Part shown: positions 215-62,983 of the stretch, piece by piece
How the letters are laid out: each line of letters starts with the position of its first letter
Numbering within the stretch: position 1 is the stretch's first letter
Made by a program: the position numbers and the translations under genes
Origin: Armatimonadota bacterium
Lineage (GTDB): Bacteria > Armatimonadota > Fimbriimonadia > Fimbriimonadales > Fimbriimonadaceae
Length of the DNA: 64,000 bases
Reading direction: 5' to 3'
Assembly (NCBI GenBank): GCA_037138755.1
Contig: JBAXHT010000001.1
Span: 653,805-717,804 of the forward strand
Notes under the pieces: model-generated
Told to the model about the DNA's origin: nothing
The model's database searches: none
Seen by the model: only the letters and a program-made list of their open reading frames with translations

Positions 215-2566
215 CTAACGCCCTGTTCGAGTTGACATTCGCTCCGAATAAACTACCGCCGCAACGATAAACAACTCGGGCAAGTCGAAGTCGGCGAGGA
301 TGGCGCCGTCTTTACCTAAGGAGAGGGCTTTGATCGCGTTGACCTCGTCGCCGTTTCCGTGAGCCTCCAGGGCCTGGTTCGCGTGCTTCGAGCGCTTACC
401 GCCGATGGTAAGGAGGGTGATCATGAGCTGATCTCGCTCCATGCCGGCGCTCATGAGGGCTCGGTAGGCTTGGCTTTCGACTCCGTAGATTCGCGCAACG
501 CCGAGGAGGCAGCGACGGCGGGTGGTCATAGAGACGCAGCTTTTGGCGACTTCGAGGATTCGGGGGACATCTTCAAGGGTTCCGTTGACGCCGAGCGCGT
601 AGGCGACTTCGGCACAGCCTTCGTCGTCGTAAAGTACGAGGGAGGCTCGGCAGGCATCGGCGGTTTCTTTCAGTTCAAGTTCTCCGGCGGCTTCGGCTGC
701 AGCGATGCGGACGGAGGGGTGCTTGTCGGTGAGAGCGTGGCTGATTGTCGCCGCAATTCCGGGTGCCTCTAGATTCCGGAGAGCCTGCAGAGCGGACCGT
801 CGCAAGTCAGGATCGGAAGGATTCTCCGCGGCATGAATCAAAGCATCAACCGCTGTCCGGTCCTCTCCAGCACCGGGAAGTTGAGCAATCGACCGCGCCG
901 CTGCGCGACGCAGTACCGAACGCGGGGCGTCCAAGAGCTTGATTAGCTCCGGAATCGCTGCCGGGTCGCCTAGGTCGCCCAAAGCTTCCACCGTTTCTTC
1001 TTCGACCAAATCTGGGTGGTCTCGGAGCTGGTGTATGAGATCCTCAACCGCCGCCTGGTCTCCAAGCCGCCCAAGTGCCGAAGCGGCCTGCCGACGAACC
1101 CGCGGCGAAGGATCGTGAAGAGCCTTGATCAGTTCATCCGAAGCAAGAGCAAAGCCATGACCCGCGATCTTTTGGATCGCGTGTTCGCGCTCCTCGGCGT
1201 CGCCGCTCTGGGTAAACGTCTTCATTGCTCGCAGCCCTTTGGGCGTCACGCTCTTCAGATTCCCCATCGTCTCGCGGAACGAACGGCTACCTTCCTCACG
1301 CACCGGTATCAGCAAGAGAAGGGCGACAAACCGGATCCCGACCGCGCAGATGAAGGTGAATTTGTAGGCAAGGTCCGTATCATGCCCGGTTCGGAAGAAA
1401 CTGAGCATCGCCGCGCCAAGCAGCGGCGGAACTGCGCCAGCAATTGACTGAATTGCCATTGCCGAACCCAGGTATGTCGAGCGCTCTTCCGGGGGGGACG
1501 TCGAGAAAATGATGTTGTATTGGCAAAGAGCGACTCCGCTGAAGACCATGCCCATCAAAATGTGACAACTGTAGAGAAGTCCAATATTGAAGGCCATGTG
1601 CTCAGTTCCGGGTTGAGTAAACAGCCACGCCGTCGGCGTCAGCAGCATCCCCATTCCGACCAGCCCAAGAATCGGCTTGTTACCGTACTTGTCCGACAAG
1701 AACCCCCAAAACTTGGACATCGAGATGTTCCCCGCCGCATGGAAGAGCCCAAGGAGCTGGACGTGGGTCTGATCAAATTTCAGACTCTCGAACGCATAAG
1801 CCGCCCACAAGTTTCCGGCAAACGATTGGCCGGCAATGAATACAAACAAGAACAGAATGACTCGAACAAACTGTTTGTTCTTAAAAGGGGAAACAAGCGC
1901 ATGAACCGTCTCCTGCACGTTCGCCCGAATCGGCTCCTCACGCGTAACGTCCGCCATTTTGAAGAAGTAGTGCATGCTCACAAAGCTGAGCACGAGCCCG
2001 AGAATGAACACTGCCGAATAGCTTTTCTCGCCAAAGTTCGCCTTCTTTAAGGCATCAACAAGGAGTCCACCGAGCAAACCGGTTCCAGTTCCAATCGCTG
2101 CGTTGAGCGAGTTTCGTTTGCCGTAGAATGCGCCGCGCTGGGAATCCGGGACGAGGCGGGCAAGCCAGTCACCATAGATCGGGTTGACCATGTTGACTAC
2201 CAGCGAGGCGATACCGCTGAAAATCAGGATGATCGTCAGCTTTGAGTTTGCGCTCCAGATGGAGATGAGCGGAAGGAAACAAAGTGGGATATGCAGCAAT
2301 CGCCATATTAGCCCTCCCGGCGCGACGTACTTCTTGAAGCTGACAAAGCTCCGACCCCAGACAGAACCAGGGATTTGGGCGAGGCCGCAGATTGCGGGGA
2401 TGGCAGTGAGCAGCCCAAGCCAGATATCCGCCGCATGAATCTCCTTGAGATAGCCGACGATGAAACTTCCGCCAACGAGGGTGATAAAGGCGGTGGCGAA
2501 GGCACCATCAAGATTCGCCGCACGCAGCGTACGGAGCGATTCGAGACGGTTAGGCTGGCCTTCCAC
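215..2566 (-). CDS. MFS transporter with C-terminal HEAT-repeat domain
   Basis: About 783 residues. Residues 1-430 form a twelve-helix major facilitator domain with hydrophobic segments alternating with short loops. Residues from about 450 to 690 are HEAT/PBS-lyase-like helical repeats, with recurring phrases such as VRRQAASALGRLGD and VLRRAAARSIAQL. The last 100 residues are helical without a recognised family. MFS proteins are usually near 400 residues, so the cytosolic tail is an addition that probably binds a partner or regulates transport. The substrate is unknown. The longest frame starts at TTG 2572, but GTG 2566 lies 6 bases after a -10-like TAAACC and is preferred here. Confidence 0.85.
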   Translation of the reverse strand: MEGQPNRLESLRTLRAANLDGAFATAFITLVGGSFIVGYLKEIHAADIWLGLLTAIPAICGLAQIPGSVWGRSFVSFKKYVAPGGLIWRLLHIPLCFLPLISIWSANSKLTIILIFSGIASLVVNMVNPIYGDWLARLVPDSQRGAFYGKRNSLNAAIGTGTGLLGGLLVDALKKANFGEKSYSAVFILGLVLSFVSMHYFFKMADVTREEPIRANVQETVHALVSPFKNKQFVRVILFLFVFIAGQSFAGNLWAAYAFESLKFDQTHVQLLGLFHAAGNISMSKFWGFLSDKYGNKPILGLVGMGMLLTPTAWLFTQPGTEHMAFNIGLLYSCHILMGMVFSGVALCQYNIIFSTSPPEERSTYLGSAMAIQSIAGAVPPLLGAAMLSFFRTGHDTDLAYKFTFICAVGIRFVALLLLIPVREEGSRSFRETMGNLKSVTPKGLRAMKTFTQSGDAEEREHAIQKIAGHGFALASDELIKALHDPSPRVRRQAASALGRLGDQAAVEDLIHQLRDHPDLVEEETVEALGDLGDPAAIPELIKLLDAPRSVLRRAAARSIAQLPGAGEDRTAVDALIHAAENPSDPDLRRSALQALRNLEAPGIAATISHALTDKHPSVRIAAAEAAGELELKETADACRASLVLYDDEGCAEVAYALGVNGTLEDVPRILEVAKSCVSMTTRRRCLLGVARIYGVESQAYRALMSAGMERDQLMITLLTIGGKRSKHANQALEAHGNGDEVNAIKALSLGKDGAILADFDLPELFIVAAVVYSERMSTRTGR

Positions 2567-2600
2567 GGACAAGGTTTAGGTTACCGGGAACCCGATCAGA

Positions 2601-3395
2601 TTATCTCGGACGAGCCACGATGATCCCTTCGGTTTTGGAGCCAGAAAGGTACTCCGAAAGCCTTTTATCAAAAGTGACTTTATGCTTTGTGCTGCTGGCA
2701 TGGACGAAGTGAGGGACGCCTTTCTCGACGACGATTAGGCCGACATGGGTGATGTCAATGCCTTTGACGCCGCCAACGAGGCCGATGATGTCGCCGGTCC
2801 TTAACTGCTTTTCGGCATTAGGAAGCGCCGAGACGGGGATGTACCATTTTTTTCGGGCGTTGCTCTCGGCTTCTAGTTTGCGGAGTCGAGGAAGCAGATC
2901 AGGGTTGGCACTGAGCGCGGCATAGCGGTCGGGATGAACCGACATATAGCTGACCTTCCGGGTCATTGGGACAGAACCGGGGAGCTTTGCGCTGAGGTCG
3001 GTGATCGTTCCTTTTCGGGAGTTATCGAAGAACCAGTCGGTTGTGTAGTGCAGCCTTGAAAGGTAGCCATCGACGCGGCCACCCCAGTAGCGGGTTTTTG
3101 TAACCGCCACCCTCAGCTTCTCATCGGTCGGATCAGGGGTTCGGGCCAAGGCGAACACGGTCTCCACGAACGTCACGCAGTCCAACCCAGAGAGGAGAAC
3201 CGTACACTTTTCCTCATTCGGAGTCTGGTCGAGGGTCGCTCCGACGTACGGCGTGCCAAGGAACTTCCTGGCGAAGAACTCCATTCTCTTGCCGATGGGC
3301 TGCCGGTAGACGCCCGCCATGGCCGCCTCCTTCGAGAGGTCATCCACCATCAACGGCACAGTTTGGATGCAAATTGCGGCGAGGAAACCGAGCAT
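2601..3395 (-). CDS. DUF1460 family amidase-like protein
   Basis: 264 residues. An N-terminal hydrophobic stretch (about residues 1-16) could be a signal peptide. The family is an NlpC/P60-like cysteine peptidase fold related to N-acetylmuramoyl-L-alanine amidases. The nucleophile would be Cys73 in GLDCVTFVET and the catalytic His would be His217 in DITHVGL. This suggests action on cell-wall muropeptides, but no substrate is proven. The frame is open up to 3602, but that extension overlaps the AraC gene out of frame. ATG 3395 lies 10 bases after the AraC stop, so the two genes probably form an operon. Confidence 0.8.
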   Translation of the reverse strand: MLGFLAAICIQTVPLMVDDLSKEAAMAGVYRQPIGKRMEFFARKFLGTPYVGATLDQTPNEEKCTVLLSGLDCVTFVETVFALARTPDPTDEKLRVAVTKTRYWGGRVDGYLSRLHYTTDWFFDNSRKGTITDLSAKLPGSVPMTRKVSYMSVHPDRYAALSANPDLLPRLRKLEAESNARKKWYIPVSALPNAEKQLRTGDIIGLVGGVKGIDITHVGLIVVEKGVPHFVHASSTKHKVTFDKRLSEYLSGSKTEGIIVARPR

Positions 3396-4284: not shown

Positions 4285-5067
4285 ATGAGTATGACTGTTG
4301 CTTCGCAATCATCCATCCGATCCGACTTCGACCGGGACGGCTTCTACTTGGCCAAAGGAGTTTTTTCGGCTGCTGAGATTGCCGCCCTTGAGGCGGACTT
4401 TGATCGGATTGTTGCCCAGATCACCTCAACTGGGGAAGAAACCAACGCCAAGTGGGGTGGTCCCGAAATGGAGCGGATGGGCGTTCAGAACACGGTGGTG
4501 ACTCACACCCATAACGTCCAGAAATACTCAGCGACTTGGGCGCGGGCGATGTTTCATGAAAAGTTCTTGGATGTCGCGGAGGCGATTCTTGGACCGGACA
4601 TCATCCTTCACCACTCAAAACTCTTCCAGAAACCTGCCGAGAACGGCGCGCCGTTCCCGATGCACCAGGACTGGGATCACTTTCCGACGATCAAAGATAC
4701 GATGATCGCGGGGATTATCCACGTCTCAACGGCAACCGACGAAATGGGTTGCCTGCGGGTTTATCCGGGAACGCACAAGCTCGGCCGGCTGCCGATTTCT
4801 TACCGCAGCCAGGACAGCGAACTCCTCAGCAAATACCCGTTAGAGAACGCAATCCCAATTGAGGCAGAGCCTGGTGATGTGGTGTTCTTCCACTACTACA
4901 CGATCCACGGCTCGATGCCAAACCGCTCGAACCAGACCCGGAAAACGGTTCTGGTTCAGCTTCACGCGGGCGATGATGTGCAGGAAGATGGAGTTTCGCA
5001 TCCCTACGAGCGGTGGGCATTGCGAGGCTTTAATCATCAAGCGAAACGCAGTTCTGTAAACGATTAA
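4285..5067 (+). CDS. phytanoyl-CoA dioxygenase (PhyH) family protein
   Basis: 260 residues of the Fe(II)/2-oxoglutarate-dependent PhyH family, which hydroxylates small organic substrates. The metal triad is visible as His127-x-Asp129 in PMHQDWDHF and His208 in YTIHGSMPNRS, followed by an Arg that would bind 2-oxoglutarate. Length is normal for the family. An in-frame ATG lies further upstream at 4249, but ATG 4285 (or 4291) fits the promoter position. The gene is followed 41 bases later by the tryptophanase-like gene, so a joint role in amino-acid or aromatic metabolism is possible but not shown. The substrate cannot be read from the sequence. Confidence 0.85.
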   Translation: MSMTVASQSSIRSDFDRDGFYLAKGVFSAAEIAALEADFDRIVAQITSTGEETNAKWGGPEMERMGVQNTVVTHTHNVQKYSATWARAMFHEKFLDVAEAILGPDIILHHSKLFQKPAENGAPFPMHQDWDHFPTIKDTMIAGIIHVSTATDEMGCLRVYPGTHKLGRLPISYRSQDSELLSKYPLENAIPIEAEPGDVVFFHYYTIHGSMPNRSNQTRKTVLVQLHAGDDVQEDGVSHPYERWALRGFNHQAKRSSVND

Positions 5068-5108
5068 CGGCGACTTTGGTCTATCTCTTGGCGTCCTAAT
5101 CCCACACC

Positions 5109-6467
5109 ATGTCGGAAATTATTGAGCCGTTTCGTATCAAGGTCGTAGAACCCATCCGTCGAACCACGCCGGCGGAGCGCGCGGAGATCCTAAAAAGAGC
5201 GCATTACAACACCTTCCTCATCGACGCCGATGACGTGCTGATCGACCTTCTCACCGATAGCGGAACGAGCGCGATGTCGGCCGCCCAATGGGGCGGAATC
5301 ATGATCGGTGACGAGAGTTACGCGGGCTCGCGTTCGTTCAAGCGGTTCGAGTCAACGATTCAGGAAATCTTCGGGTTCAAACACGTGGTCCCGACCCACC
5401 AAGGCCGGGCTGCAGAAAAGATCCTGATGAGCATCGTCGGCGGTGCCGGGAAGGTCATTCCGAACAACAACCACTTCGACACCACCCGCGCCAACGTCGA
5501 ATTCACCGGAGCCGAGGCCCGAGACCTGGTTATCAAAGAGGGTCGCGACCCGGCCTCGATGCACCCGTTCAAAGGCAACATTGATCTCGAATCGCTAGAG
5601 GCCACCCTAAAAGAGGGAAAGTGCCCGATTGGGATGATCACGATCACCAACAATACAGGCGGCGGACAGCCCGTTTCGATGGCAAACATTCGCGCGGTGT
5701 CGGCTCTCTACCGCAAGCACGGAGTGCCGTTTATCATCGACGCTTGCCGATTCGCGGAGAACGCCTACTTCATCAAGGAGCGCGAACCGGGCTACGCTGA
5801 CAAGACTCCACGCGAGATCGCAAAGGAGATTTTCAGCTACGCCGACGGCGCGACGATGAGCCTTAAGAAGGACGGTTTCGGCAATATCGGCGGATTCCTA
5901 GCCCTCAACGACGACGCAATGGCGGAGCAGGCTCGGAACCTGTTGATCCTTACCGAAGGCTTTCCGACCTACGGCGGCCTCGCTGGGCGAGACCTTGAGG
6001 CTCTTGCAATCGGCCTCAACGAGGTTCTCGATGAAGACTATCTTGAATACCGGCTTGCCACCATCCGATATCTCGCCTCGCGGCTAGCAGATAGTAATGT
6101 TAACATCGTCCAGCCCCCCGGAGGACACGCGGTTTACGTCGATGCCCGCTCATTTTACAACCACATTCCTGCAAGCCAGTTTCCCGCTCAGGCCCTGGTC
6201 TGCGATCTGTACCTGGAAGGCGGAATTCGCGGTGTCGAGATCGGTTCGGGGATGTTTGGACGTTGCGTCGACGGCGTAGAAGTGCCAGCGGACCGCGAGC
6301 TGGTGAGGCTCGCAATGCCGCGCCGGGTGTACACCCAGGCCCACGTCAACTACATTGGGGAGGTCTTCGCTCGTCTTGCGGCAAAGCGCCACGAAGCCAA
6401 GGGACTGAAGATCACCAAACAGGCTCCGATTCTGAGGCACTTCACAGCGTGGTTCGAGCCGGTTTGA
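5109..6467 (+). CDS. tnaA: tryptophanase / tyrosine phenol-lyase family, probably tryptophanase
   Basis: 452 residues of the PLP-dependent beta-eliminating lyase family, which cleaves tryptophan to indole (or tyrosine to phenol), pyruvate and ammonia. The cofactor lysine is Lys254 in TMSLKKDGF. The conserved LLTDSGT, PTHQGR, GGQPVSMAN and FAENAYFIK blocks are all present. In tyrosine phenol-lyase the substrate-selecting Arg lies in MERGI; here the matching segment reads VEIGS, as in tryptophanase, so tryptophan is the more likely substrate. No TnaC-like leader peptide is visible in the 41 bases upstream. A -10-like TAATCC ends 6 bases before the ATG. Confidence 0.85.
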   Translation: MSEIIEPFRIKVVEPIRRTTPAERAEILKRAHYNTFLIDADDVLIDLLTDSGTSAMSAAQWGGIMIGDESYAGSRSFKRFESTIQEIFGFKHVVPTHQGRAAEKILMSIVGGAGKVIPNNNHFDTTRANVEFTGAEARDLVIKEGRDPASMHPFKGNIDLESLEATLKEGKCPIGMITITNNTGGGQPVSMANIRAVSALYRKHGVPFIIDACRFAENAYFIKEREPGYADKTPREIAKEIFSYADGATMSLKKDGFGNIGGFLALNDDAMAEQARNLLILTEGFPTYGGLAGRDLEALAIGLNEVLDEDYLEYRLATIRYLASRLADSNVNIVQPPGGHAVYVDARSFYNHIPASQFPAQALVCDLYLEGGIRGVEIGSGMFGRCVDGVEVPADRELVRLAMPRRVYTQAHVNYIGEVFARLAAKRHEAKGLKITKQAPILRHFTAWFEPV

Positions 6468-6498: not shown

Positions 6499-7278
6499 AT
6501 GCGATTTGCTTTTGTTGCTTTGTTTGGCTTTACTTGCTCATTCGGTTTAGCGGCTCCGTTTGCAAGGGTGCTGTCTGCTAACCAGCAGATTCGGAATGTG
6601 GATATGGTGACCCAGACGGAGCCACTTTTGTTCACGACTGGCTTGCCTTCCGAGAGTCTCGCGGTCTCAATCGGTGGGACGCAGTACTTCGCTGATCCGG
6701 TCGGAAATCTCTGGACGCCGACATCGAGCGGCTCGATTCCAGCAGGTTCGTTGGGATTTGGGCAAATTGGTGATCTCGATTGGGCGAATAATGGACTTTG
6801 GGGATTTAGCAACGCTAACCAATCGCTGTTCTTTTACGATCTCGGTTCAGCTTCGGTTACCGCAAGCTACTCAATTCCATCGCTCAGCAGTCTGATCGTG
6901 ACCGGGGTTGCATTTCGACCCACCGACTCCTCGATTTTTCTCAGCGCTCGGCAAGGGCTGAACAACGACTTCCTTTTCCAGGTGCCGTCGTCATCATCCA
7001 CCGCGAATCTGATCGGTTCGATGCCGATCAGCGATGCCTTTAGCTACGTCGCGGACATCGACTTCGACCCTACCGGAACCCTCTACGCCGTGTCGTTCTA
7101 CCACCGAGACTTCTACTCGGTGAACGTCTCCACCGCCGCCACATCCTTCATCAGCACCGGACCGCACCGTGATGTTTATGCAATGGCTCTCAACCCCACC
7201 GTCGTTCCTGAACCGGGGACGATTCTCGGACTAGCGGCAGGGATCTGCGGCTACTTGCGTCGGCGCAAAAGCTCGTAG
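6499..7278 (+). CDS. PEP-CTERM sorting domain protein
   Basis: 259 residues. It has a signal peptide (hydrophobic core near residues 3-16, ending in LAAP), a beta-rich body of about 200 residues without a recognised catalytic motif, and a C-terminal sorting signal: VVPEPGTI, a hydrophobic helix and the basic tail YLRRRKSS. Such proteins are processed by an exosortase and placed in the envelope or extracellular matrix. No exosortase gene is in this window. The body resembles a beta-propeller-like repeat protein (WANNGLWGF, VADIDFDPTGTLYAV). Its 3' end overlaps the convergent GH76-like gene by 28 bases. Confidence 0.85.
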   Translation: MRFAFVALFGFTCSFGLAAPFARVLSANQQIRNVDMVTQTEPLLFTTGLPSESLAVSIGGTQYFADPVGNLWTPTSSGSIPAGSLGFGQIGDLDWANNGLWGFSNANQSLFFYDLGSASVTASYSIPSLSSLIVTGVAFRPTDSSIFLSARQGLNNDFLFQVPSSSSTANLIGSMPISDAFSYVADIDFDPTGTLYAVSFYHRDFYSVNVSTAATSFISTGPHRDVYAMALNPTVVPEPGTILGLAAGICGYLRRRKSS

Positions 7279-17940: not shown

Positions 17941-20412
17941 ATGGATTCAGAGAGTCGGATCGCCCGGTTGGAACAGAGCTTGGAGGAACTGCGCGAACGC
18001 TTTGTCGCTCTGGAAGCTCTTCTGACGCCGCCCGCGCTGCCTCCGATTGATCGTCCTGGGTTCGTGGCCCAGCCACCCGTTGTTGAAACTTCGCAATTGA
18101 GTCCCTCGCTTCTGCCTCCCGTGGTGACCGATCTGGAGCCAATCGTTTCTGAGACGCTGACCCCATCGCCGCTGCAAACTTACATTGCCGCCAACCGAGT
18201 TCGAGAAGATGCAGAACCGGTGAGGACACAACCTCCCAAGGTTGATCATGACGACTTGGAATACAAACTGGGGATCAACGGGCTATTGCGAGGCGGCGCA
18301 CTGGTTGTTCTCGCCGCATTTCTCTTTCTAGCTGCCGTCATGATTTCACGGGGCTACGTGACCCCGCAGGTTCAATTTGCCGGAGAAATTCTGCTTTGCT
18401 TTGGATTCGCGGCAATCGGCTTCTGGAAACGCGACGAGCGAGAAGAGTTTGGGCAGCTCATGGTTGGTTTGGGTTCAGCAGGGCTGTATGCCAGCTTCGC
18501 CGGAGCCCATCTGTACAAGCATCTGTTTGAAGGCGAGGTCCTGGTGGGGCTTTACGTTTTGCTCAGCTTTTTGAACCTTGGCTATGCACATTTGCGGGCT
18601 TCCAAGTCATTTTTGGCGATCGGAGTACTGGGCGGCTTTGCGGCGGCAATGATGCCGATGAAGGAATCCAAAGTCATTTTGGACATCTGCCTGCACTTTC
18701 TGATCCTGGTGCCTGCCGCAGTGATTACCCTGAAGAATCGCTGGTACGTGGTCGGAGTGGCGGTCTGGGTTGTTTCTTCGTTCGCTCTGGTTCCGATCCT
18801 CGGGTCTGATGCGGCGCTGGTTGTCCGTATGGGAGCCCTGTACGTGAACACGGCGGCCGGATTGTACGTTTGCGGAAAGCTCTTTGAACCCAACGAATTC
18901 GACCGTCATGGATTGCTTCTAACCGCGATGGTGTGCGTTACGGGCATCATCGGATTCTCGGTAGCGGGTCATGCGACGCCCCCTTTGCACGTTTTGGTTT
19001 TCGCCTTGATGAGCGGTGGTGTCGGAGCACTGTTGCCGGCCGAGGGCAAGTCTCGGATGGGTATCTGGCTTGGCTCACTTCTCGTTGCGGCTGTGCTGTT
19101 CCCGATGGGCTTAAAGCCATTGCAAGCGGCGTTTTTGTACTCTGTAGAGGGGATCCTGTTGGGGATTATTGCGATTCGCCGGTTATCGAACGTTGCATTT
19201 TGGGTTGGCCTGATGGTGTTCGGATTATCGCTCGCTGCTTACGCGGTGAAGCTCGATTCCCAGTCGACGCTCCGGTTATGGGCCGAACTGCTGCTGCTTG
19301 CTTCCTTTGCGGTCAACGTCTTTGTTAGTGCTCACTTTGCGCTCAAGAAGTTCGACCGGGATACCGGCGACTTAGCTCTGTTCTTGGGATCTCTCGGTCT
19401 TCTCGCCGTTTTCCTGCGGACGACGGTTTTGACTGTTCCGGGGACGGGAACCGGACTCAAGTGGGCAGAGAGTGCGATGCTGGGACTCGCGGCTTGGAGC
19501 ATTGCCTCGACGGTTGTTGCCTCTCGCGTTCGGCGACTGGGGCTCGTGATTTCTGCTGGCGTAGCCGGAGTGATCGCTGCCGACTTTGCCCTGATCCGCG
19601 AGCCGTCGACTTCACCGCAATGGCTCACCGTTGCGTTGCTGTTTTCTACTGCGCTAAATGCGACGCTTGCGATTACTGCCGGGGCGAAACACTTAGCAGG
19701 AAGCTACCCAAAAGGTGTTCGGATCGCCTATGGAGCGTTGATCTCGGTCATCTTCATTCGCTTACTGCAAGTGGTCGGACATCACAAAGTCGGGGCGTTC
19801 AGCGAAGAAACAATTGTCTATTTTGGATTCGGCGTTTTGAATGCGGTTTGGACGGTTCTGGCACTGCGCTTCCGCCGTTCGGAGACTCTGGTGCTCGCAG
19901 GAACGGCATGGCTCTGTTGCGCGGCGGTTGCGGTCGGAGTCCAGTCCAGTCCAGTCCTTTCGTGGCTCCGACCATCGTTGCAGATCACGTCTTTGCTGAG
20001 CCTGGGGATTCTGTTCTGGATCACACCTCGAAAAGAGGCGGACGAAGGGGGGATCACGTCTTTCGCATCCTTCTTCGGCTTGGTCTTGTCCTCTTTGCTG
20101 CTCACGGAGTTCTTGGTTAGGCCTGGTATTGGGATGAACCGTGTTTCGGCGATCTCGGCGAGTTGGGTGGTTTACGCATTATTCTTGCTCGTGGTCGGGT
20201 TCCGGGCGGAACGTCGATATTTGCGTTATAGCGGGCTGGCGGTGTTTGGGTTGACAGTTGGCAAGGTTGTTCTAATCGACTTGTCAGAGTTGGACTCGAT
20301 GATTCGGGTGGGGATTCTTCTTCTGCTTGGGCTGGGAATGATCGGCACTGGCTACTGGTACATCCTTTGGGATCGAAAGCGCCGTTCGACCGAGCAAGAA
20401 AAGCCTGAGTAA
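17941..20412 (+). CDS. DUF2339 family large membrane protein
   Basis: 823 residues. Residues 1-25 are a short coiled-coil-like helix (SRIARLEQSLEELRERFVALEALL) followed by a proline-rich linker to about residue 95. The signature LEYKLGINGLLRGGALVVLAAFLFL then opens a run of more than 20 predicted membrane helices. DUF2339 proteins are widespread inner-membrane proteins of unknown function. The last helices end in a basic cytosolic tail (WDRKRRSTEQEKPE). It stands alone, with the ArsR promoter starting right after its stop. Confidence 0.85.
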   Translation: MDSESRIARLEQSLEELRERFVALEALLTPPALPPIDRPGFVAQPPVVETSQLSPSLLPPVVTDLEPIVSETLTPSPLQTYIAANRVREDAEPVRTQPPKVDHDDLEYKLGINGLLRGGALVVLAAFLFLAAVMISRGYVTPQVQFAGEILLCFGFAAIGFWKRDEREEFGQLMVGLGSAGLYASFAGAHLYKHLFEGEVLVGLYVLLSFLNLGYAHLRASKSFLAIGVLGGFAAAMMPMKESKVILDICLHFLILVPAAVITLKNRWYVVGVAVWVVSSFALVPILGSDAALVVRMGALYVNTAAGLYVCGKLFEPNEFDRHGLLLTAMVCVTGIIGFSVAGHATPPLHVLVFALMSGGVGALLPAEGKSRMGIWLGSLLVAAVLFPMGLKPLQAAFLYSVEGILLGIIAIRRLSNVAFWVGLMVFGLSLAAYAVKLDSQSTLRLWAELLLLASFAVNVFVSAHFALKKFDRDTGDLALFLGSLGLLAVFLRTTVLTVPGTGTGLKWAESAMLGLAAWSIASTVVASRVRRLGLVISAGVAGVIAADFALIREPSTSPQWLTVALLFSTALNATLAITAGAKHLAGSYPKGVRIAYGALISVIFIRLLQVVGHHKVGAFSEETIVYFGFGVLNAVWTVLALRFRRSETLVLAGTAWLCCAAVAVGVQSSPVLSWLRPSLQITSLLSLGILFWITPRKEADEGGITSFASFFGLVLSSLLLTEFLVRPGIGMNRVSAISASWVVYALFLLVVGFRAERRYLRYSGLAVFGLTVGKVVLIDLSELDSMIRVGILLLLGLGMIGTGYWYILWDRKRRSTEQEKPE

Positions 20413-35343: not shown

Positions 35344-35401
35344 CGAGTTGTCGAGATTCTATCACCTTGCCCAAGCCCAACTCGGTAATCTCGGCAGACA
35401 T

Positions 35402-35584
35402 ATGGGACACGTCCGACCGACAGACGAAAAGTTTTTTCGTACGATGATTCGGTTGCTGCATGTCGAAAACTCGCTCACAGGACTATCTGCTGGCAGGCAG
35501 TTCACAGGGTCACTTCACCAATGCGAGGGACAAGATGCTTGCCCTACGGTCGCCTGCCTGTGCGCCTATACTCACGCAGACTAG
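35402..35584 (+). pseudogene. truncated copy of the pdhA 5' end
   Basis: 60 codons starting MGHVRPTDEKFFRTMIRL match the first 50 or so residues of the intact E1 alpha protein at 37272 (MGHVRPTDEQFFRTMIRL). Shared blocks include GSLH-CEGQ-ACP. The copy then loses similarity and stops at TAG 35582. The bases just before the ATG (GGTAATCTCG) are also shared with the intact gene. It lacks the thiamine-binding region and cannot be active. Confidence 0.85.
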
Positions 35585-35593: not shown

Positions 35594-36214
35594 ATGAGAC
35601 GAGCATTCACCCTGATCGAGCTGATGATTTGCATCTTAATCGTATCAATTCTCGCCTCATTGCTTTTTCCGGTATTTTCCAGGTCCCTCAAAAGTGCCCA
35701 TGGCGTCGGTACGATCTCGAATCTTCGACAATGCTATCTGGCACTCGCTACTTATGAGTCCGATAACTCCGAGTGGCCAGATTACGAACAGTCAATCCTG
35801 GCTTTAGCCAAGGCTCCTACTCACGACTCAGGCGATTATTGGAAAGTATCCCACGGAAAAGTGTATGAGCCGATGATTTACTCTTATGCCTACATTAGAG
35901 GCGTGAAATACTCGTTCGGCTCCGATGCTCTATGGCATGCCTTTCAAAGTGAACAACTCTCAAAGGGGCAAGCTATTCCCCTCTTAGCCTCCGTTTGGCA
36001 GTCGGAGCCACGCACCGAGTTTGTAAGCTCGAGTGCAGTTTTTCCGACTCCCCCATCCTTTTTCCGCTGCTGGGCTGAACGTCGCTGTTTCATTCCTCCA
36101 AGGGTTACATACGTTTTTCTGGCGGGTAATGCGAAGGCAATGCAGTTTAAGCATGAAATTCCGCCACGGCCCTTCTACTGGGACCGCTTGTTTCTAAGAT
36201 CCGTTGAGAAGTAA
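35594..36214 (+). CDS. pilin-like protein with degenerate tail
   Basis: 206 residues. [27 protein letters not shown] is a type IV prepilin-type signal with Glu at +5. The body (SNLRQCYLALATYESDNSEWPDYEQ) follows H-X9-DG prepilin-like proteins, but the C-terminal motif reads FLAGNAKAM, where the Asp of FxDGHAK is lost. The region looks richer in A and T than its surroundings. It is followed after 4 bases by a membrane-protein gene and is bounded by pdhA fragments, so it may be part of an inserted cassette. Confidence 0.75.
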   Translation: MRRAFTLIELMICILIVSILASLLFPVFSRSLKSAHGVGTISNLRQCYLALATYESDNSEWPDYEQSILALAKAPTHDSGDYWKVSHGKVYEPMIYSYAYIRGVKYSFGSDALWHAFQSEQLSKGQAIPLLASVWQSEPRTEFVSSSAVFPTPPSFFRCWAERRCFIPPRVTYVFLAGNAKAMQFKHEIPPRPFYWDRLFLRSVEK

Positions 36215-36682
36215 ACATATGAAGTCATTTCCCACTGTGCCGCCCGCCTTTTGGAGATTTACCGCAAATTGGTCACGATTGCAGCGACTAGTTTTTTGTC
36301 CCCTAATTGTAAGCCCCATTCTGTATTTTGTGTCACTGCGACTCGCCTGTCTAGTGTCGAACTCCTATTGGTACTTATTCCGATTCGATCAGGTGTTTGC
36401 TTTTCAATCCAGCCTTTTCTTTGTCGTGGGCCTAACATTGGTAAACCGGTACTGGTTCATCATCGGCACCTGTTGGGTCTTGGCGCTGACTGTTCTCGCA
36501 GTTACCGTCTCGGTGGGAGTCGAATGGAGAAAGTTTCTCGCTGCTTTGATTTACAATCCGCTCGCAATCGTTCTCCTCATGAGTGTGCTCGGTCCGGTCA
36601 GCTCAATTACCGATACTCGGCGTGGACGCGATTCGTCGGGTCCGTAGCTTTGCACTCCAAGTACAATTGGCCCTCTTCGCGG
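36166..36682 (+). repeat. tandem duplication, copy A
   Basis: The 3' end of the pilin-like gene, the first 142-residue membrane-protein gene and about 35 bases downstream are repeated, diverged, at 36740-37255. Shared flanking phrases include CCCTTCTACTG and GTAAACA before the ATG and GCGATTCGTCGG near the stop. Confidence 0.75.
36219..36647 (+). CDS. membrane protein of unknown function, paralogue A
   Basis: 142 residues with three or four membrane helices. Starts MKSFPTVPPAFWRFTANW and ends LLMSVLGPVSSITDTRRGRDS. The whole protein aligns without gaps to the second copy at 36792. The helices are strongly diverged in sequence while both termini are kept, suggesting selection on the ends. ATG 36219 is chosen over ATG 36204 because the paralogue begins at the same residue. 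It follows the pilin-like gene by 4 bases. No family was recognised. Confidence 0.7.
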   Translation: MKSFPTVPPAFWRFTANWSRLQRLVFCPLIVSPILYFVSLRLACLVSNSYWYLFRFDQVFAFQSSLFFVVGLTLVNRYWFIIGTCWVLALTVLAVTVSVGVEWRKFLAALIYNPLAIVLLMSVLGPVSSITDTRRGRDSSGP

Positions 36683-36732
36683 AACTCTAGGCAGATCTGT
36701 GGGAGATGCTCGTTGAACAGATGAGCAGTTTT
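36683..36732 (+). pseudogene. second, more decayed remnant of the pdhA 5' end
   Basis: A 50-base stretch aligns without gaps to 35386-35435 (first remnant) at about two matches in three, by hand count, including the GGCAGA and AGTTTT blocks. It lies after paralogue A just as the intact pdhA lies after paralogue B. It is too short for a protein. Confidence 0.45.
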
Positions 36733-36739
36733 ACCTCTG

Positions 36740-37255
36740 CGACCCTTCTACTGAGACCGCTTCTTCCTAATATCCACTGAGGAGTAAACAGATGAAATCA
36801 TTTCCCACTGTACCGCCCGAAGTTTGGAACTTTACTGCCAACTGGAAACCTTGGCAGAGGACTCTTATCTGCCCACTCCTCGTTAGCCCTGTGATGTATT
36901 TCTTTACATTATTGCTATCTTGTCTAGCAACTAATTCTTACTGGTATCTGTTTAAACTTGATACTTCCTTTTATCTCCAGTGCAGCTTTTTTCTTGTCAT
37001 CGGTGTTACGCTGATCAATCGTTTTTGGGTCAAAATTGGTCTCGTCTGGGTGCTATTCTTTCTGATTCTGACCCTGTCCCTTACTGTTGGAATAGACTGG
37101 AAGGGAAGAGTGATCACCATGGTGCAGAATCCGATCGCTCTGCTGCTGTTAATGAGTGTGCTCGGCCCGGTCAGCTCAATCACCGAGACAGGGCGCGGAC
37201 GCGATTCGTCGGTTCCGTGACTTTGCCCTCTAAGTAGAATTGGACTTCCACGCGG
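36740..37255 (+). repeat. tandem duplication, copy B
   Basis: Copy B of the unit at 36166-36682. The first 52 bases are a remnant of the pilin-like gene's 3' end with no open frame left; the membrane-protein gene is intact. Confidence 0.75.
36792..37220 (+). CDS. membrane protein of unknown function, paralogue B
   Basis: 142 residues, three or four membrane helices, starting MKSFPTVPPEVWNFTANW and ending LLMSVLGPVSSITETGRGRDS. It is a full-length paralogue of the protein at 36219, with the same length and conserved NSYWYLF block near residue 50. The gene looks A+T-rich (CTTTACATTATTGC). The intact pdhA starts 51 bases after its stop. Confidence 0.7.
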   Translation: MKSFPTVPPEVWNFTANWKPWQRTLICPLLVSPVMYFFTLLLSCLATNSYWYLFKLDTSFYLQCSFFLVIGVTLINRFWVKIGLVWVLFFLILTLSLTVGIDWKGRVITMVQNPIALLLLMSVLGPVSSITETGRGRDSSVP

Positions 37256-37271
37256 TAATCTCGCCAAACAT

Positions 37272-38213
37272 ATGGGACACGTCCGACCGACCGACGAGCA
37301 GTTTTTTCGCACGATGATTCGGTTACGGCATGTCGAGACGGCCCTCTCCGAGCTCTCGGCAGCAGGTCAGCTTCGCGGTTCGCTGCACCTATGCGAGGGG
37401 CAAGAGGCTTGTCCGGCAGGAGCCTGTGCGGCGTTGCTGAAAGAAGACTATGTGACGGCGACGTATCGCGGCCACGGTTACGTTTTGGCGAAGGGGACTT
37501 CGCTGGATAAGGTGATTGCTGAAGTTCTAGGACGGGCGACGGGTTTGTGTAAGGGTAAGGGCGGAAAGATGCACTTATTCGATCAGGAGTTTGGTGTGCT
37601 CGGCACGAACGGGATCGTAGGCGCAGGAGTCGGGACCGCCTGCGGTGCGGCGTTGGCATCCAAGTTGGACGGGACTGGTCGGGTTGCGATGACTGTCTTT
37701 GGAGACGGCGCGAACAACCAGGGGCACCTGATGGAGTGTTGGAATATGGCGGTTCTTTACAAGCTACCGGTCATCTTCTTCTGCGAGAATAATCTGTATT
37801 CCGAGATGACACCGTTGTCGCGTTCGCACGGAAGCGTAAACTTAGCCGAGCGAGCAAGGGGCTTTGGGCTCCACACGGATTCAGTGAATGGCAACGACCC
37901 TCACGCGGTTTTCGAAGTTGTCTCCAAAGCGGCGGATCGAGGCCGCAGTGGCCAAGGTCCGACGTTTATTGAGGCGATGACCTATCGAACAACGGGACAC
38001 TACCAGGCTGACTCCGGCACGGCATATAGAACAAAAGAGGAGGTTGAAGACTGGCGCTCTCGCTCGCCGATATTGTTGCTTCGGCAACGAATCGGGGCAA
38101 AGGCAGACGAGATTGAAGCTGAAGAGCTAGCGGCAGTGCAAGCCTCGGTCGGAAAAGCTTTGGCATCACCTGTGCCTGGGGTCGATCAGTCGATGACGGA
38201 GGTGTTCGCATGA
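37272..38213 (+). CDS. pdhA: 2-oxo acid (pyruvate or acetoin) dehydrogenase E1 alpha subunit
   Basis: 313 residues. Thiamine diphosphate-binding motif GDGANNQG at residues 144-151 with the closing Asn in FFCENN. TYRGHGYVLAKG and GKGGKMHLF are conserved E1 alpha blocks. It decarboxylates a 2-oxo acid or acetoin together with the beta subunit, whose gene overlaps by 4 bases. No E2 or E3 gene is near, so the substrate (pyruvate, acetoin or branched-chain 2-oxo acid) is undecided. Its 5' end has two broken copies upstream. Confidence 0.87.
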   Translation: MGHVRPTDEQFFRTMIRLRHVETALSELSAAGQLRGSLHLCEGQEACPAGACAALLKEDYVTATYRGHGYVLAKGTSLDKVIAEVLGRATGLCKGKGGKMHLFDQEFGVLGTNGIVGAGVGTACGAALASKLDGTGRVAMTVFGDGANNQGHLMECWNMAVLYKLPVIFFCENNLYSEMTPLSRSHGSVNLAERARGFGLHTDSVNGNDPHAVFEVVSKAADRGRSGQGPTFIEAMTYRTTGHYQADSGTAYRTKEEVEDWRSRSPILLLRQRIGAKADEIEAEELAAVQASVGKALASPVPGVDQSMTEVFA

Positions 38214-59641: not shown

Positions 59642-60208
59642 ATGTTTGATCCGCTGCTTCCTGCTAACACGATCGTCCAATGGCACTTGGAGCAAATGGT
59701 GACGGTAACACCTCTTAGGGTCCAGAAGGTTCTGTATTACTCTCACGGTTGGCATCTGGCACTCGCTGGCTACCCAATGGTTTCCTCCCCGATGGAGGCT
59801 TGGACATGGGGTCCTGTTAACCCTCGGGTTTACGCCGCTTTTGAGAGATACAGCAAAGATGAACCTATTCGGCATCTCGCTTTTCGCGAGAACGGTGAAT
59901 CTAGAAAACTTGAGGATGAGTCAAACGAGCACTCCAGATACGCGGCATCGCTCGCTCGAGCGGTGTGTGACTCTCTGAAGGGCATGAGTGATACTGCACT
60001 CTTTGAGTCCACTCATGAAGAGGGGACACCTTGGGAGGTCGCCGTCAGAGATTTTACGGCAGAGTTTCAACGACCCCCGGAGCCTTGGGACCACGAAGCC
60101 ATTTCGAATGCGAAGATAAAGCACTTCTTTGCCGCACAATTGAATAATTCAAGTGGAGAAACGGCGGCGGTCAACTCATCATCCAGGAGCGACTCAAGCT
60201 CAAGATGA
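59642..60208 (+). CDS. Panacea-domain (DUF4065) protein, candidate antitoxin
   Basis: 188 residues. VTPLRVQKVLYYSHGWHLALAGYPMVSSPMEAWTWGPVNPRVYAAFERY is the Panacea/DUF4065 signature at residues 20-70. In SocA and PanA proteins this domain neutralises, or helps degrade, very different toxins encoded beside it. The last 25 residues are Ser-rich. The next gene overlaps by 4 bases (ATGATGA), the usual layout of toxin-antitoxin pairs. Confidence 0.85.
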   Translation: MFDPLLPANTIVQWHLEQMVTVTPLRVQKVLYYSHGWHLALAGYPMVSSPMEAWTWGPVNPRVYAAFERYSKDEPIRHLAFRENGESRKLEDESNEHSRYAASLARAVCDSLKGMSDTALFESTHEEGTPWEVAVRDFTAEFQRPPEPWDHEAISNAKIKHFFAAQLNNSSGETAAVNSSSRSDSSSR

Positions 60209-60927
60209 TGAGCGGGTCACCATTCGGAACCGGTGGTCCCCCTCAAGGTGCTGGAAATCCGCCAGCGCTCCCCTCTGATCCGCCAATGAATCCTGATCAG
60301 GATGATCTGCGGGGTGCGAATAGTGGTCAAGAAGGACGGGTTGATACTCCGTTCGGACTCCTGAGCCGACTCATTCTGGATAAAGGAGATAATCTTCGTA
60401 TACGGGAGTTTTCCTTTTTATTGGCACTTCTGCTAGTTTTTGGAATTCTTCTCTATGACAACAATTTGGGGCGGTTGCAAACCTACTCGAGTGGCATTCG
60501 CTCACTCTACAAGATAATTGCAAGCGGTGCCATTTTTGGATTCGTCGGTTTACTCTATTTGTCGCTATCTGATCATCGATTCAAATTCAACTGGAATCTG
60601 CTCTGTCGATTGGGATTGTTTGGACTGTTACTGATTTCTTCGCTCAAGTACGGCGTCCCCATCTTCAAAAGTCAGTTTGCTACGGATTCAAGAAGCGGTT
60701 TACACGATGCATCCTGGAAGGAAAGCGTCCGGGTACTGTCTGAAATGCACTACCAAGCGGACGTGTCCAAGGCACGTCAAAGACTGGCGGAAGTAGAGCA
60801 GACTCCAAAGTCTTCTGTGCACACCGAGGTCGCTCGACAAGAGATGGTCATGAGAGCCAAAGTGATCTATTCTCAAGACATCTCAGAAGCGATGCTAGAG
60901 AAGTCCGAGCGCGAAGCCAATTTGTGA
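60205..60927 (+). CDS. membrane protein, candidate toxin of the Panacea pair
   Basis: 240 residues. Residues 1-45 are Pro/Gly-rich and acidic. Three membrane helices follow near residues 70-85, 105-122 and 130-148 (SFLLALLLVFGILLY, IIASGAIFGFVGLLYLSL, LCRLGLFGLLLISSL). The last 85 residues are charged and helical (SKARQRLAEVEQTPKSSV). No known family. Coupling to a Panacea gene suggests the toxin side of the pair, acting at the membrane, but this is inference; it may instead be a membrane sensor. Confidence 0.65.
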   Translation: MMSGSPFGTGGPPQGAGNPPALPSDPPMNPDQDDLRGANSGQEGRVDTPFGLLSRLILDKGDNLRIREFSFLLALLLVFGILLYDNNLGRLQTYSSGIRSLYKIIASGAIFGFVGLLYLSLSDHRFKFNWNLLCRLGLFGLLLISSLKYGVPIFKSQFATDSRSGLHDASWKESVRVLSEMHYQADVSKARQRLAEVEQTPKSSVHTEVARQEMVMRAKVIYSQDISEAMLEKSEREANL

Positions 60928-60949
60928 ATCCGATGTTAATACCGCATCG

Positions 60950-62983
60950 CTAAGCCGAGGATACGACTTGCAAGTTGGCCATCGCCCGGTCGTGGTTAGG
61001 TTCAATGGTCAAAGCCTGGCGATAACAACCCTCGGCACCTTGATCCAGATTCATTTGCGCCATGGCGTTTCCAAGGACAAACCAGCCGTCGGCAAAATCT
61101 GGACGAAGCTGAAGTCCCACATGGTACATCTCGGCGGCTTGTGGATAGTAGCCAAGTTTATAGAGTAGGTCGCCGCAGCTGAATTGGATGTTCGAGTCCA
61201 AAGGCGCCAGAGCCATCGCTCTGCGGAAGCACCCGAGGGCGTCATCCAAGCGACCCGCCGAAGAAAGCGCATCGGCCCATTTCATCAAGAGGTTTGCATC
61301 CAGCGGCTGATACTTCTCAAGCATTTGGAAAGGCGTCAACGGGTCCCCGAGCTTGATCATCGCGAATGCCCAGGACTCCCAAGTGCCTAGGTCTGCCGGG
61401 TTGGCATCCCAGGCGGCCTTGTAATGTTGACTCGCGGTCGAAAAATCGTTTCGAGCAGCGGCGACCGTCCCTAGCCCGCGCTCAGCGGCCCAGCGAGTCG
61501 CGGCGTTGCTCAGGGCCATCCGGTAGGTCAGCTCGGCTTCTTCAAACCTTTCGAGCCTGACAAGCGCGTCTCCGCGTCCGAGTAACGCTGGCGGATAACC
61601 AGGTTGCCGCGATAAAGTTTCGTCGTACCACTTCAGCGCTTCGGACCAGTTTTCTTGAGCGCCGAAGATCATGGCCTTGTGGCCATAGCGCCGAAAATCG
61701 GCGATGGCTTTATCGCCGACAAAGTTCTCGGGCCATTCGTGGGCGAGGCAGCGGTCAACTGCGGCATGAGCTTCTTCGTAGCGACCCAAGTTAAAAAGGG
61801 CGATCGACCACAGATACTCGTTGACGATTCCGCTGTAGGCCGTTCCTGCACACAGTTCGCATACTTTGACGGCTTCTTCAGATCGGCCGTCCATATCGAG
61901 AGCAGTGGCCCAAATTTGGAAGGCGGAACAGCCGTAATCGGCACCAGAGGCGGCGATGTTTCGGACGCATTTTTCGGCGGTCTCGGCGGCTTGCTGGTAG
62001 GTTTTTGCCACGAACTGGGTGTTCGCTAGGTTAAAAAGCTGAAAAGGATCGTTGGGATTGCCTGCAACCGCCTTCTCTAGCATCTCAAGGGTTCGGTTAA
62101 CCTTGTCTTTCGATTTCACTAATTCCTCGCGGTACCCATCATGATGGATTTTTGCCGCTGGAAGCGGAGTCCAAGGTAGCCCAAGTGCAATCAAAGAAGG
62201 TGTGATCTGCTCATGGATTGGCTCGGAAAACTGAACGCCGGGAATCCGTCGGAATAGACGGGTCGGAGAGTGAACGAACTCAGTAATCGTCCCCGACTCG
62301 TCGAGGTAGTTCACGATTTCAATGCTGAATCCGCCGATGTGCGGCCGACAGACCGCCTTCTGAAACTCTTCAAAACACGAAGGATCAAGTTGCTCGTCGG
62401 CGTCGATCCAAAGTGCCCATTCCCCGCTGGCTAACGAAAGTGCGTGGTTACGGGCGGCAGAAAAATCTTTGATCCATTCGAAGTAGCCTTCGATTGCGCC
62501 AAATCGCCGGGCGATTTCCATCGTACGGTCGGTGGAGCCAGTGTCCACAACAACGATTTCATCGACGATCCCTTGAAGTGAGGCGAGACACTTCTCCAAA
62601 ACCGCCTCTTCATTTTTGACGATCAGGCAAGCAGAAATTCGAGCGCCGATGCCGGGTTCAGGAGTGTACGGATGAGCGTTTAGCCAACCATCTGCCGAAA
62701 CGTCGGCACGGGAACGTCGTTGTGCCACCAGTTGGCGGCAATAGTAGTAACGCGACAGAAACAGTTCAAGATCATGGTGTCGTGGGGCGCCGATCGTCTC
62801 GGCAAACCTCTGCGACGCAGCCTCTTCATTGCCGAAAAAGGATTCTACAAAGAGGTACTCGCATAGCAAATCGGGATTTGTTGGCTCCTTTTCAAGAGCC
62901 AAAGCCAGTTGCTCACGCGCCGCCAGAAAATGGTGCTTCTGCAGGCTTTCTCGGGCTTGTTGGGCAACTGGATGGGGCTTCAT
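60950..62983 (-). CDS. glycosyltransferase family 2 with TPR repeats
   Basis: 677 residues. A TPR-like N-terminus (about 1-95) leads to a GT2 domain at about 110-290 with ISACLIVKNEEAVLEKCLASL, EIVVVDTGSTDRTMEIARRF and the metal-binding DAD in WALWIDADEQL. The rest is a long run of TPR units (WSEALKWYDETLSRQPGYPPALLGRGDALVRL and similar). This SunS/TPR-GT2 type often modifies proteins or envelope glycans; the acceptor is unknown. It overlaps the MerR gene by 4 bases. Confidence 0.88.
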   Translation of the reverse strand: MKPHPVAQQARESLQKHHFLAAREQLALALEKEPTNPDLLCEYLFVESFFGNEEAASQRFAETIGAPRHHDLELFLSRYYYCRQLVAQRRSRADVSADGWLNAHPYTPEPGIGARISACLIVKNEEAVLEKCLASLQGIVDEIVVVDTGSTDRTMEIARRFGAIEGYFEWIKDFSAARNHALSLASGEWALWIDADEQLDPSCFEEFQKAVCRPHIGGFSIEIVNYLDESGTITEFVHSPTRLFRRIPGVQFSEPIHEQITPSLIALGLPWTPLPAAKIHHDGYREELVKSKDKVNRTLEMLEKAVAGNPNDPFQLFNLANTQFVAKTYQQAAETAEKCVRNIAASGADYGCSAFQIWATALDMDGRSEEAVKVCELCAGTAYSGIVNEYLWSIALFNLGRYEEAHAAVDRCLAHEWPENFVGDKAIADFRRYGHKAMIFGAQENWSEALKWYDETLSRQPGYPPALLGRGDALVRLERFEEAELTYRMALSNAATRWAAERGLGTVAAARNDFSTASQHYKAAWDANPADLGTWESWAFAMIKLGDPLTPFQMLEKYQPLDANLLMKWADALSSAGRLDDALGCFRRAMALAPLDSNIQFSCGDLLYKLGYYPQAAEMYHVGLQLRPDFADGWFVLGNAMAQMNLDQGAEGCYRQALTIEPNHDRAMANLQVVSSA

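Follow-up and report, generated by a model that had tools for sequence, protein, structure and literature searches.

The window, meaning the whole 64,000-nucleotide stretch of Fimbriimonadaceae DNA (phylum Armatimonadota) analysed here, carries an array in which a pilin-like gene (P) and two genes for small membrane proteins (M1 and M2) lie among copies of the 5′ end of an E1-alpha subunit gene. The array consists of the following features.

35380–35584, plus strand: copy A, a truncated E1-alpha 5′ end with 22 nt upstream (repeat alignment)
35594–36214, plus strand: P, a pilin-like protein of 206 aa with a prepilin N-terminus (PF07963 above cut-off)
36219–36647, plus strand: M1, a multi-pass membrane protein of 142 aa (ATG start, open reading frame, alignment with M2)
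36648–36735, plus strand: copy B, a short E1-alpha 5′ remnant lying between the two units (3′ border approximate)
36736–36787, plus strand: what is left of a second P gene, only its final codons, interrupted by an internal stop (sequence comparison)
36792–37220, plus strand: M2, a multi-pass membrane protein of 142 aa, paralogue of M1 (ATG start, open reading frame, alignment, structure model)
37250–37426, plus strand: copy C, corresponding to copies A and B, at the 5′ end of the intact E1-alpha gene
37272–38213, plus strand: intact E1-alpha subunit gene, host gene at the putative insertion site (PF00676)

P matches PF07963 with 28.5 bits (cut-off 21.2), so the prepilin N-terminal motif is present, and it scores 28.5 against TIGR02532 (cut-off 16.3). 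Its structure model, predicted from the single sequence, has a mean pLDDT of 39 and is confident for the N-terminal helix only. Like the GspG/ComGC pseudopilins (TIGR01710, NF040999, TIGR02532), P has a prepilin N-terminus, which matches over the first 24–84 residues; unlike GspG, it reaches 43.1 bits against a cut-off of 88.85 and has a C-terminal part of its own, with invariant columns such as D..D.W. In a scan of nine proteins PHROGs returned only prepilin-end matches for P, and a weak PADLOC match of P (E 0.005) was set aside. The window genome has 10 matches to T2SSE/PilB-type ATPases (PF00437) and one to prepilin peptidase (PF01478), which makes the processing and assembly of P plausible.

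M1 and M2 align without a gap over 142 residues with 81/142 (57%) identities and an E value of 4e-63, a likeness beyond chance; an in-frame TTG at 36204 would lengthen M1 by five codons if used. The window genome holds no third M copy. The structure model of M2 (pLDDT 66.8, low confidence) has helices at residues 9–16, 20–51, 58–98 and 114–135 and two short strands, and no extra domain beyond these. Throughout, membrane segments were called with a simple hydropathy window, and gene calls are open reading frames in partly fragmented genomes. The M pair had been described earlier as A+T-rich compared with its surroundings, and the base composition agrees: the G+C content is 50.2% for M1, 46.7% for M2 and 49.2% for P, and the 1-kb bin 36001–37000 stands at 0.481, with 0.518 and 0.561 in the adjoining bins and 0.499 (60001–61000) as the lowest value among all other bins of the window. 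The strongest AT skew of the 1-kb bins, −0.307, lies elsewhere, at 19001–20000.

The start of the E1-alpha gene is present three times, before P, after M1 and, as part of the intact gene, after M2. In copy A the repeat proper spans 35380–35556, and the frame stays open for 60 codons from 35402, up to 35584. The repeat extends past the M genes and also covers the E1-alpha start and the last part of the pilin gene. The intact gene encodes a protein 94% identical to one from Fimbriimonas sp. D15.bin.35, which marks the genome as Fimbriimonas-like. Two relatives (L022 and L023) have a single E1-alpha gene with a cassette-free upstream region, which in L023 is collinear with copy A, and their genomes (G291, G292) gave no P-family match at E up to 1e-5. 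When the two sides of the window array are placed on these empty sites, they overlap by 165 bp in one relative and 168 bp in the other. The array may thus have been inserted at the E1-alpha 5′ end, duplicating about 165–177 bp, or may have been cleanly lost from both relatives; the remnant E1-alpha copies favour insertion.

Alike ends and diverged cores in M1 and M2

The earlier note had observed that M1 and M2 share MKSFPTVPP at the start and VLGPVSSIT...GRDSS near the end while their middle diverges. Both observations stand: residues 1–9 are identical at 9/9 positions and residues 119–142 at 21/24, against 45/98 over residues 21–118. The same contrast is found at the DNA level. Nucleotide identity is 77% over residues 1–20, 86% over residues 119–142 and 54% over the core (21–118), and the proportion of synonymous differences (pS) is 0.50, 0.30 and 0.90, respectively. 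With rounded synonymous counts, the ends (13/33) differ from the core (65/73) with p 2.5e-7 in a Fisher test. Where the residue is identical, the same codon was kept at 21/32 positions in the ends and 12/41 in the core (p 0.0024; Met and Trp codons excluded). A control in which the third-position pattern was rotated is weaker, because 12/142 rotations gave an end–core contrast as large as the observed one. The flanks beyond the M genes are also more alike than the coding core (54%), with 47/62 identical positions in the P end and 63/95 after M.

Since pS is lower at the ends and the non-coding flanks are more alike than the core, the ends have the look of DNA that came to be shared recently, and the cores that of far older alleles whose proteins have stayed similar. 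DNA duplication explains the alike ends better than a role as protein binding sites does. The earlier note had proposed that binding to a partner, possibly P, keeps the ends conserved, and this proposal fits their high amino acid identity and their dN, which is below that of the core; it is nevertheless very improbable, as synonymous and non-coding divergence is low there too, the ends are absent from the other 20 M proteins aligned, and the positive-inside rule, read by eye, would place both ends in the cytoplasm, away from the outer domain of the pilin. The alignment of all 22 M proteins contains no invariant or nearly invariant column, ends included.

M genes beside P in other Armatimonadota

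The M family had been called unrecognised, and our searches bear this out. M1 and M2 gave only below-cut-off matches in Pfam (US6 and QueT for M1, US6 for M2), and the 22 M proteins together matched ten Pfam families, one member each, with a best E of 0.00094 and below the family cut-offs. In NCBIfam, 12 M proteins gave three weak matches, one member each (best E 0.005), and a pilin accessory model was absent from their matches at E<=0.1, although the library may hold no such model. We set aside all of these candidates as weak, below cut-off or single-member, namely US6, QueT and eight other Pfam families, and CbiQ, an antiporter subunit and Cas5p from NCBIfam. PADLOC and PHROGs returned nothing for M1 and M2 in the scan of nine proteins, and a profile search of solved structures with M found none clearly related (one match at E 0.38). 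Plasmid and phage records gave no match to M2, and viral contigs none to a 27-base stretch of it.

Among 100 other genomes, the sole clear homologue by sequence (G010; 29% identical, E 1e-22) sits directly 3′ of a P homologue; the next match had an E of 0.006. The earlier note had named, as an outcome against it, a family with no homologues anywhere and relaxed selection along its full length. We found neither: the homologue side is thin, with one clear case (G010) in 100 genomes, and relaxed selection in the M1/M2 core is not borne out, the core dN being about 0.42 with saturated synonymous sites.

Further M genes were found through P. We built a P profile (A3) from 12 sequences with the general prepilin end left out; at E up to 1e-6 it matches at least 27 places in at least 22 of 291 genomes of the phylum, counting the 12 seeds, which match their own profile by construction. 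It had no match in 343 genomes of the phylum of a Phycisphaerae record (L055), an empty result that carries no weight without a positive control. A tree of 23 P proteins, leaving out four fragmentary or weakest of the 27, is mostly unresolved (3/20 inner branches well supported) and was therefore not used to argue transfer.

An M-like gene adjoins P at 22/27 loci (11/12 seeds and 11/15 non-seeds). We accepted as M an open reading frame of 110–185 codons with at least two hydrophobic segments, on the same strand and within about 150 nt of P. The automatic rule found 21 of the 27; the 22nd (L105), missed because its frame has an upstream GTG start, was added by inspection. The five P loci lacking M are L096 and L139, two at contig ends (L141, L147) and the weakest P match (L145). 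At control pilins, taken from L074–L092 minus L074 (cassette-like set) and L078 (a P family member), the same rule found M at 0/17. Outside the 27, locus L107 is rule-negative yet has V-, S- and M-like frames (V and S are described below) beside its prepilin gene. Gene order varies, with M preceding P at L097, L144 and L176–L179. Because identity to M2 is only 7–17% outside the G010 homologue (28–29%), the common descent of the M proteins is argued from position, size and hydrophobicity, and M proteins at different loci may possibly be unrelated membrane proteins.

Given the pairing at 22/27 P loci compared with 0/17 controls, P is the likely partner of M, as the earlier note had surmised for the adjacent pilin-like protein. 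Seven P–M loci (the window, L097, L098, L101, L102, L106 and L144) lack, by the rule, both V and S in their vicinity, and the genomes concerned (G000, G006, G005, G037 and G031) have no V among the matches listed, so M can accompany P alone. That M stands with P where V and S were not seen also points to P as its partner; these seven loci were chosen for containing both genes, and L096 and L139 have P alone.

The four-gene cassette and its borders

In genomes other than that of the window, P and M form part of a cassette of four genes, the other two being V and S, in the order V-S-P-M or V-S-M-P. We recognised no such cassette in open-licence papers near the topic. V lies near P at 12/27 loci by script, and a cysteine-rich frame likewise at 12/27. 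Three of these loci call for comment: the cysteine-rich frame of L096 has no V nearby and is probably due to chance, the S-like frame of L143 (one of the nine sequences in alignment A4) is 3.4 kb away on the opposite strand, and at L099 V is downstream of P and was missed by the rule.

V is a membrane protein with several hydrophobic segments, usually followed by a thioredoxin-like CxxC domain. In an alignment of 11 V sequences two CxxC pairs, at positions 115/118 and 178/181 of L094, are invariant, and a third at 276/279 falls in the thioredoxin-like part. The V protein of L100 (G012; 4846–5865) lacks the thioredoxin part and continues instead into what by eye is an S-like cysteine-rich tail, and no separate S gene was seen at that locus. 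VKOR/DsbB membrane thiol oxidases occur fused to thioredoxin. V resembles such fusions in its two CxxC pairs, its multi-helix membrane part and, except at L100, its thioredoxin/glutaredoxin-like domain; unlike VKOR, none of the 11 V proteins matches PF07884 at E up to 1, no DsbB model matched either, and profiles detect only the glutaredoxin/thioredoxin part, and that weakly. PHROGs gave a thioredoxin match for one V and none for S or M among the nine proteins scanned. When V was compared with a VKOR protein from the same genome (L093), hhalign gave a probability of 15%, with the alignment falling on the cysteine pairs. The S peptide is small and rich in cysteines, begins with a hydrophobic stretch and has six cysteines that are invariant in nine sequences (A4); it matched no family apart from one weak single-member match.

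A V profile (A5, 11 seeds) matches at least 24 places in at least 16 of 291 genomes. The window genome is not among the matches listed; it keeps P, M and a second M, and the rule finds no S close to its P. We opened four places that are not among the 27 P loci (L176–L179, in G003 twice, G062 and G046:C5), and all four carry V, S, M and a prepilin gene in the order V-S-M-P; G046:C5 has a weak match to the P profile (E 2.1e-6), listed under G295, which by its coordinates is the same genome as G046. Another, L180, shows V and the start of S before the stretch examined ends. At L178 (G062; 2052–2922, minus strand), in another family of the phylum, the full cassette has two tandem, diverged M genes, 54/130 identical with a score of 217, compared with at most 58 in 300 shuffles. 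An IS110-type transposase gene lies upstream of the cassette at L176 (1463–2101).

Verru_Chthon pilin cassettes are likewise repeated, lineage-specific and equipped with prepilin-type proteins. Of 12 P proteins, three match the Verru_Chthon model TIGR02596 and one matches TIGR02599, all weakly and perhaps through the general prepilin end; we know of no counterpart of V, S or M in those cassettes.

The duplicated E1-alpha end has parallels at other cassettes. We aligned the 1.2-kb flanks (shorter at contig ends) of 20 + 3 cassettes, leaving out L096, L136, L139, L141, L143, L145–L147, L179 and L180, which have too little flank or no M. The two flanks aligned with scores of 60–298 at 8/23 cassettes, and the other 15/23 had no such repeat. 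The best score was 34 in 380 mismatched flank pairs and 30 in 373 random intervals, which came from the window and five related loci and so mostly not from the cassettes' own genomes. Two of the eight repeats, at L098 and L108, have further direct or inverted copies in the same locus and were not counted as gene-end duplications. At the remaining 6/23 cassettes the end of a neighbouring gene is duplicated on the far side:

Window: E1-alpha 5′ end, 163 aligned nt
L142: fucosidase 3′ end, 177 aligned nt
L100: last 29 nt of the S7 gene and the following palindrome, 150 aligned nt
L103: 3′ end of an AcrB-type gene, 77 aligned nt
L177: 3′ end of a 240-codon open reading frame, 85 aligned nt
L178: near the 3′ end of a 416-codon open reading frame, 47 aligned nt

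In all six, a long open frame next to the cassette contains or adjoins one copy of the repeat, and the repeats of L142 and L100 occur exactly twice in their respective genomes. At the inserts of the window, L100, L103 and L142, neither terminal inverted repeats nor a common end motif was conspicuous. Integration through an attachment site on the cassette itself, recombination of a circular molecule and true target duplication are possible origins of these duplications. Among the surrounding features, we noted a tyrosine recombinase gene adjoining the P–M pair of L101 (4138–5436), a recombinase fragment (6679–6924) near the P gene without M at L096, three partly palindromic repeats of about 145–175 nt around the P–M pair of L098 (4709–6753), and many local repeats around the cassette of L108 (1–5750), where one stretch reads N.

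Possible roles of M

The closest known counterpart of M in action would be the TfpY-like proteins, which are encoded beside a pilin gene, have been reported to interact with the pilin and were proposed to aid pilus assembly without entering the pilus; TfpY itself comprises 235 aa, in which three helices at the N-terminus precede a periplasmic β-sheet domain (PMC11841053). M resembles TfpX/TfpY/TfpZ of Pseudomonas aeruginosa and other Pseudomonadota in being small, multi-pass, associated with a pilin type and encoded beside the pilin, the last at 22/27 loci. Unlike TfpY as described there, M has about 140 aa and three to four hydrophobic segments with no periplasmic domain, and unlike the whole TfpX/TfpY/TfpZ group it has no profile match and sits in a cassette with V and S. 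The 142-aa M2, in its low-confidence model, lacks the architecture of three helices plus periplasmic domain in about 235 aa. Being shorter and without that domain, M was not filed as a TfpY member; it is most likely a pilin-specific membrane accessory protein that acts in a TfpY-like manner.

We give a slight preference to the reading, drawn from gene content and sequence, that M1 and M2 are M copies of a mobile Armatimonadota pilin cassette and that M is an accessory of its own P. V would form the disulfides of S, prepilin peptidase would cut P, and type II secretion or type IV pilus motors would assemble it; M would stay in the inner membrane and help its own P into a pseudopilus, as has been proposed for TfpY and PilA, and S would be displayed on this pseudopilus or expelled by it. 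In the window, P and M would have entered at the E1-alpha 5′ end, duplicating about 165–177 bp of that gene, with a diverged second M unit in tandem, and the alike ends of M1 and M2 would mark recent DNA joins around old, diverged cores. The window pair looks like the leftovers of a four-gene package in which a pilus-like protein is coupled with a secreted peptide rich in cysteines.

The main rival of the accessory reading is that M confers immunity to S, which would resemble a disulfide-rich bacteriocin, with V carrying out its maturation and P its export, and with M1 and M2 as orphan immunity genes kept against the peptides of neighbours. Small multi-pass membrane proteins ending peptide operons fit bacteriocin immunity. 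M is very divergent, is duplicated with divergence in two genomes and is present at seven loci where S was not seen, all of which suit this reading. Immunity alone, however, leaves the retained P at those seven loci unexplained, a modest argument because the loci were picked for both genes and L096 and L139 have P without M or V, and in the V-S-P-M order M adjoins P rather than S. We consider immunity unlikely.

Still less probable is that the pair is functionless, decaying junk of a broken cassette. This would agree with the lack of V among the matches listed for the window genome and of S near P by the rule, and with copies A and B, like the second P gene, being remnants. Amid these remnants, however, P, M1 and M2 are full open frames, and the M1/M2 core has the dN noted above together with saturated synonymous sites.

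Armatimonadota genomes carry dozens of pilin-like genes; for Fimbriimonas ginsengisoli, 79 PulG-type pseudopilin genes as well as fimbriae were reported (PMC4072686). The cassettes may, on a tentative view that we hold with low confidence, constitute an undescribed mobile element with a dedicated pseudopilus. The element's own oxidase would make a disulfide-rich peptide for this pseudopilus to bear or eject, M would serve as the matching partner in the membrane or confer immunity, and the element would settle at gene ends, duplicating about 50–180 bp there with no recombinase of its own. To our knowledge, most pilin-like genes of Armatimonadota have no known role. The cassette gives such genes a testable job, by linking a pilin subfamily to a partner in the membrane, a peptide rich in cysteines and a protein resembling thiol oxidases, and the duplicated ends of host genes at some cassette borders raise the question of how small gene packages with no recombinase of their own move.
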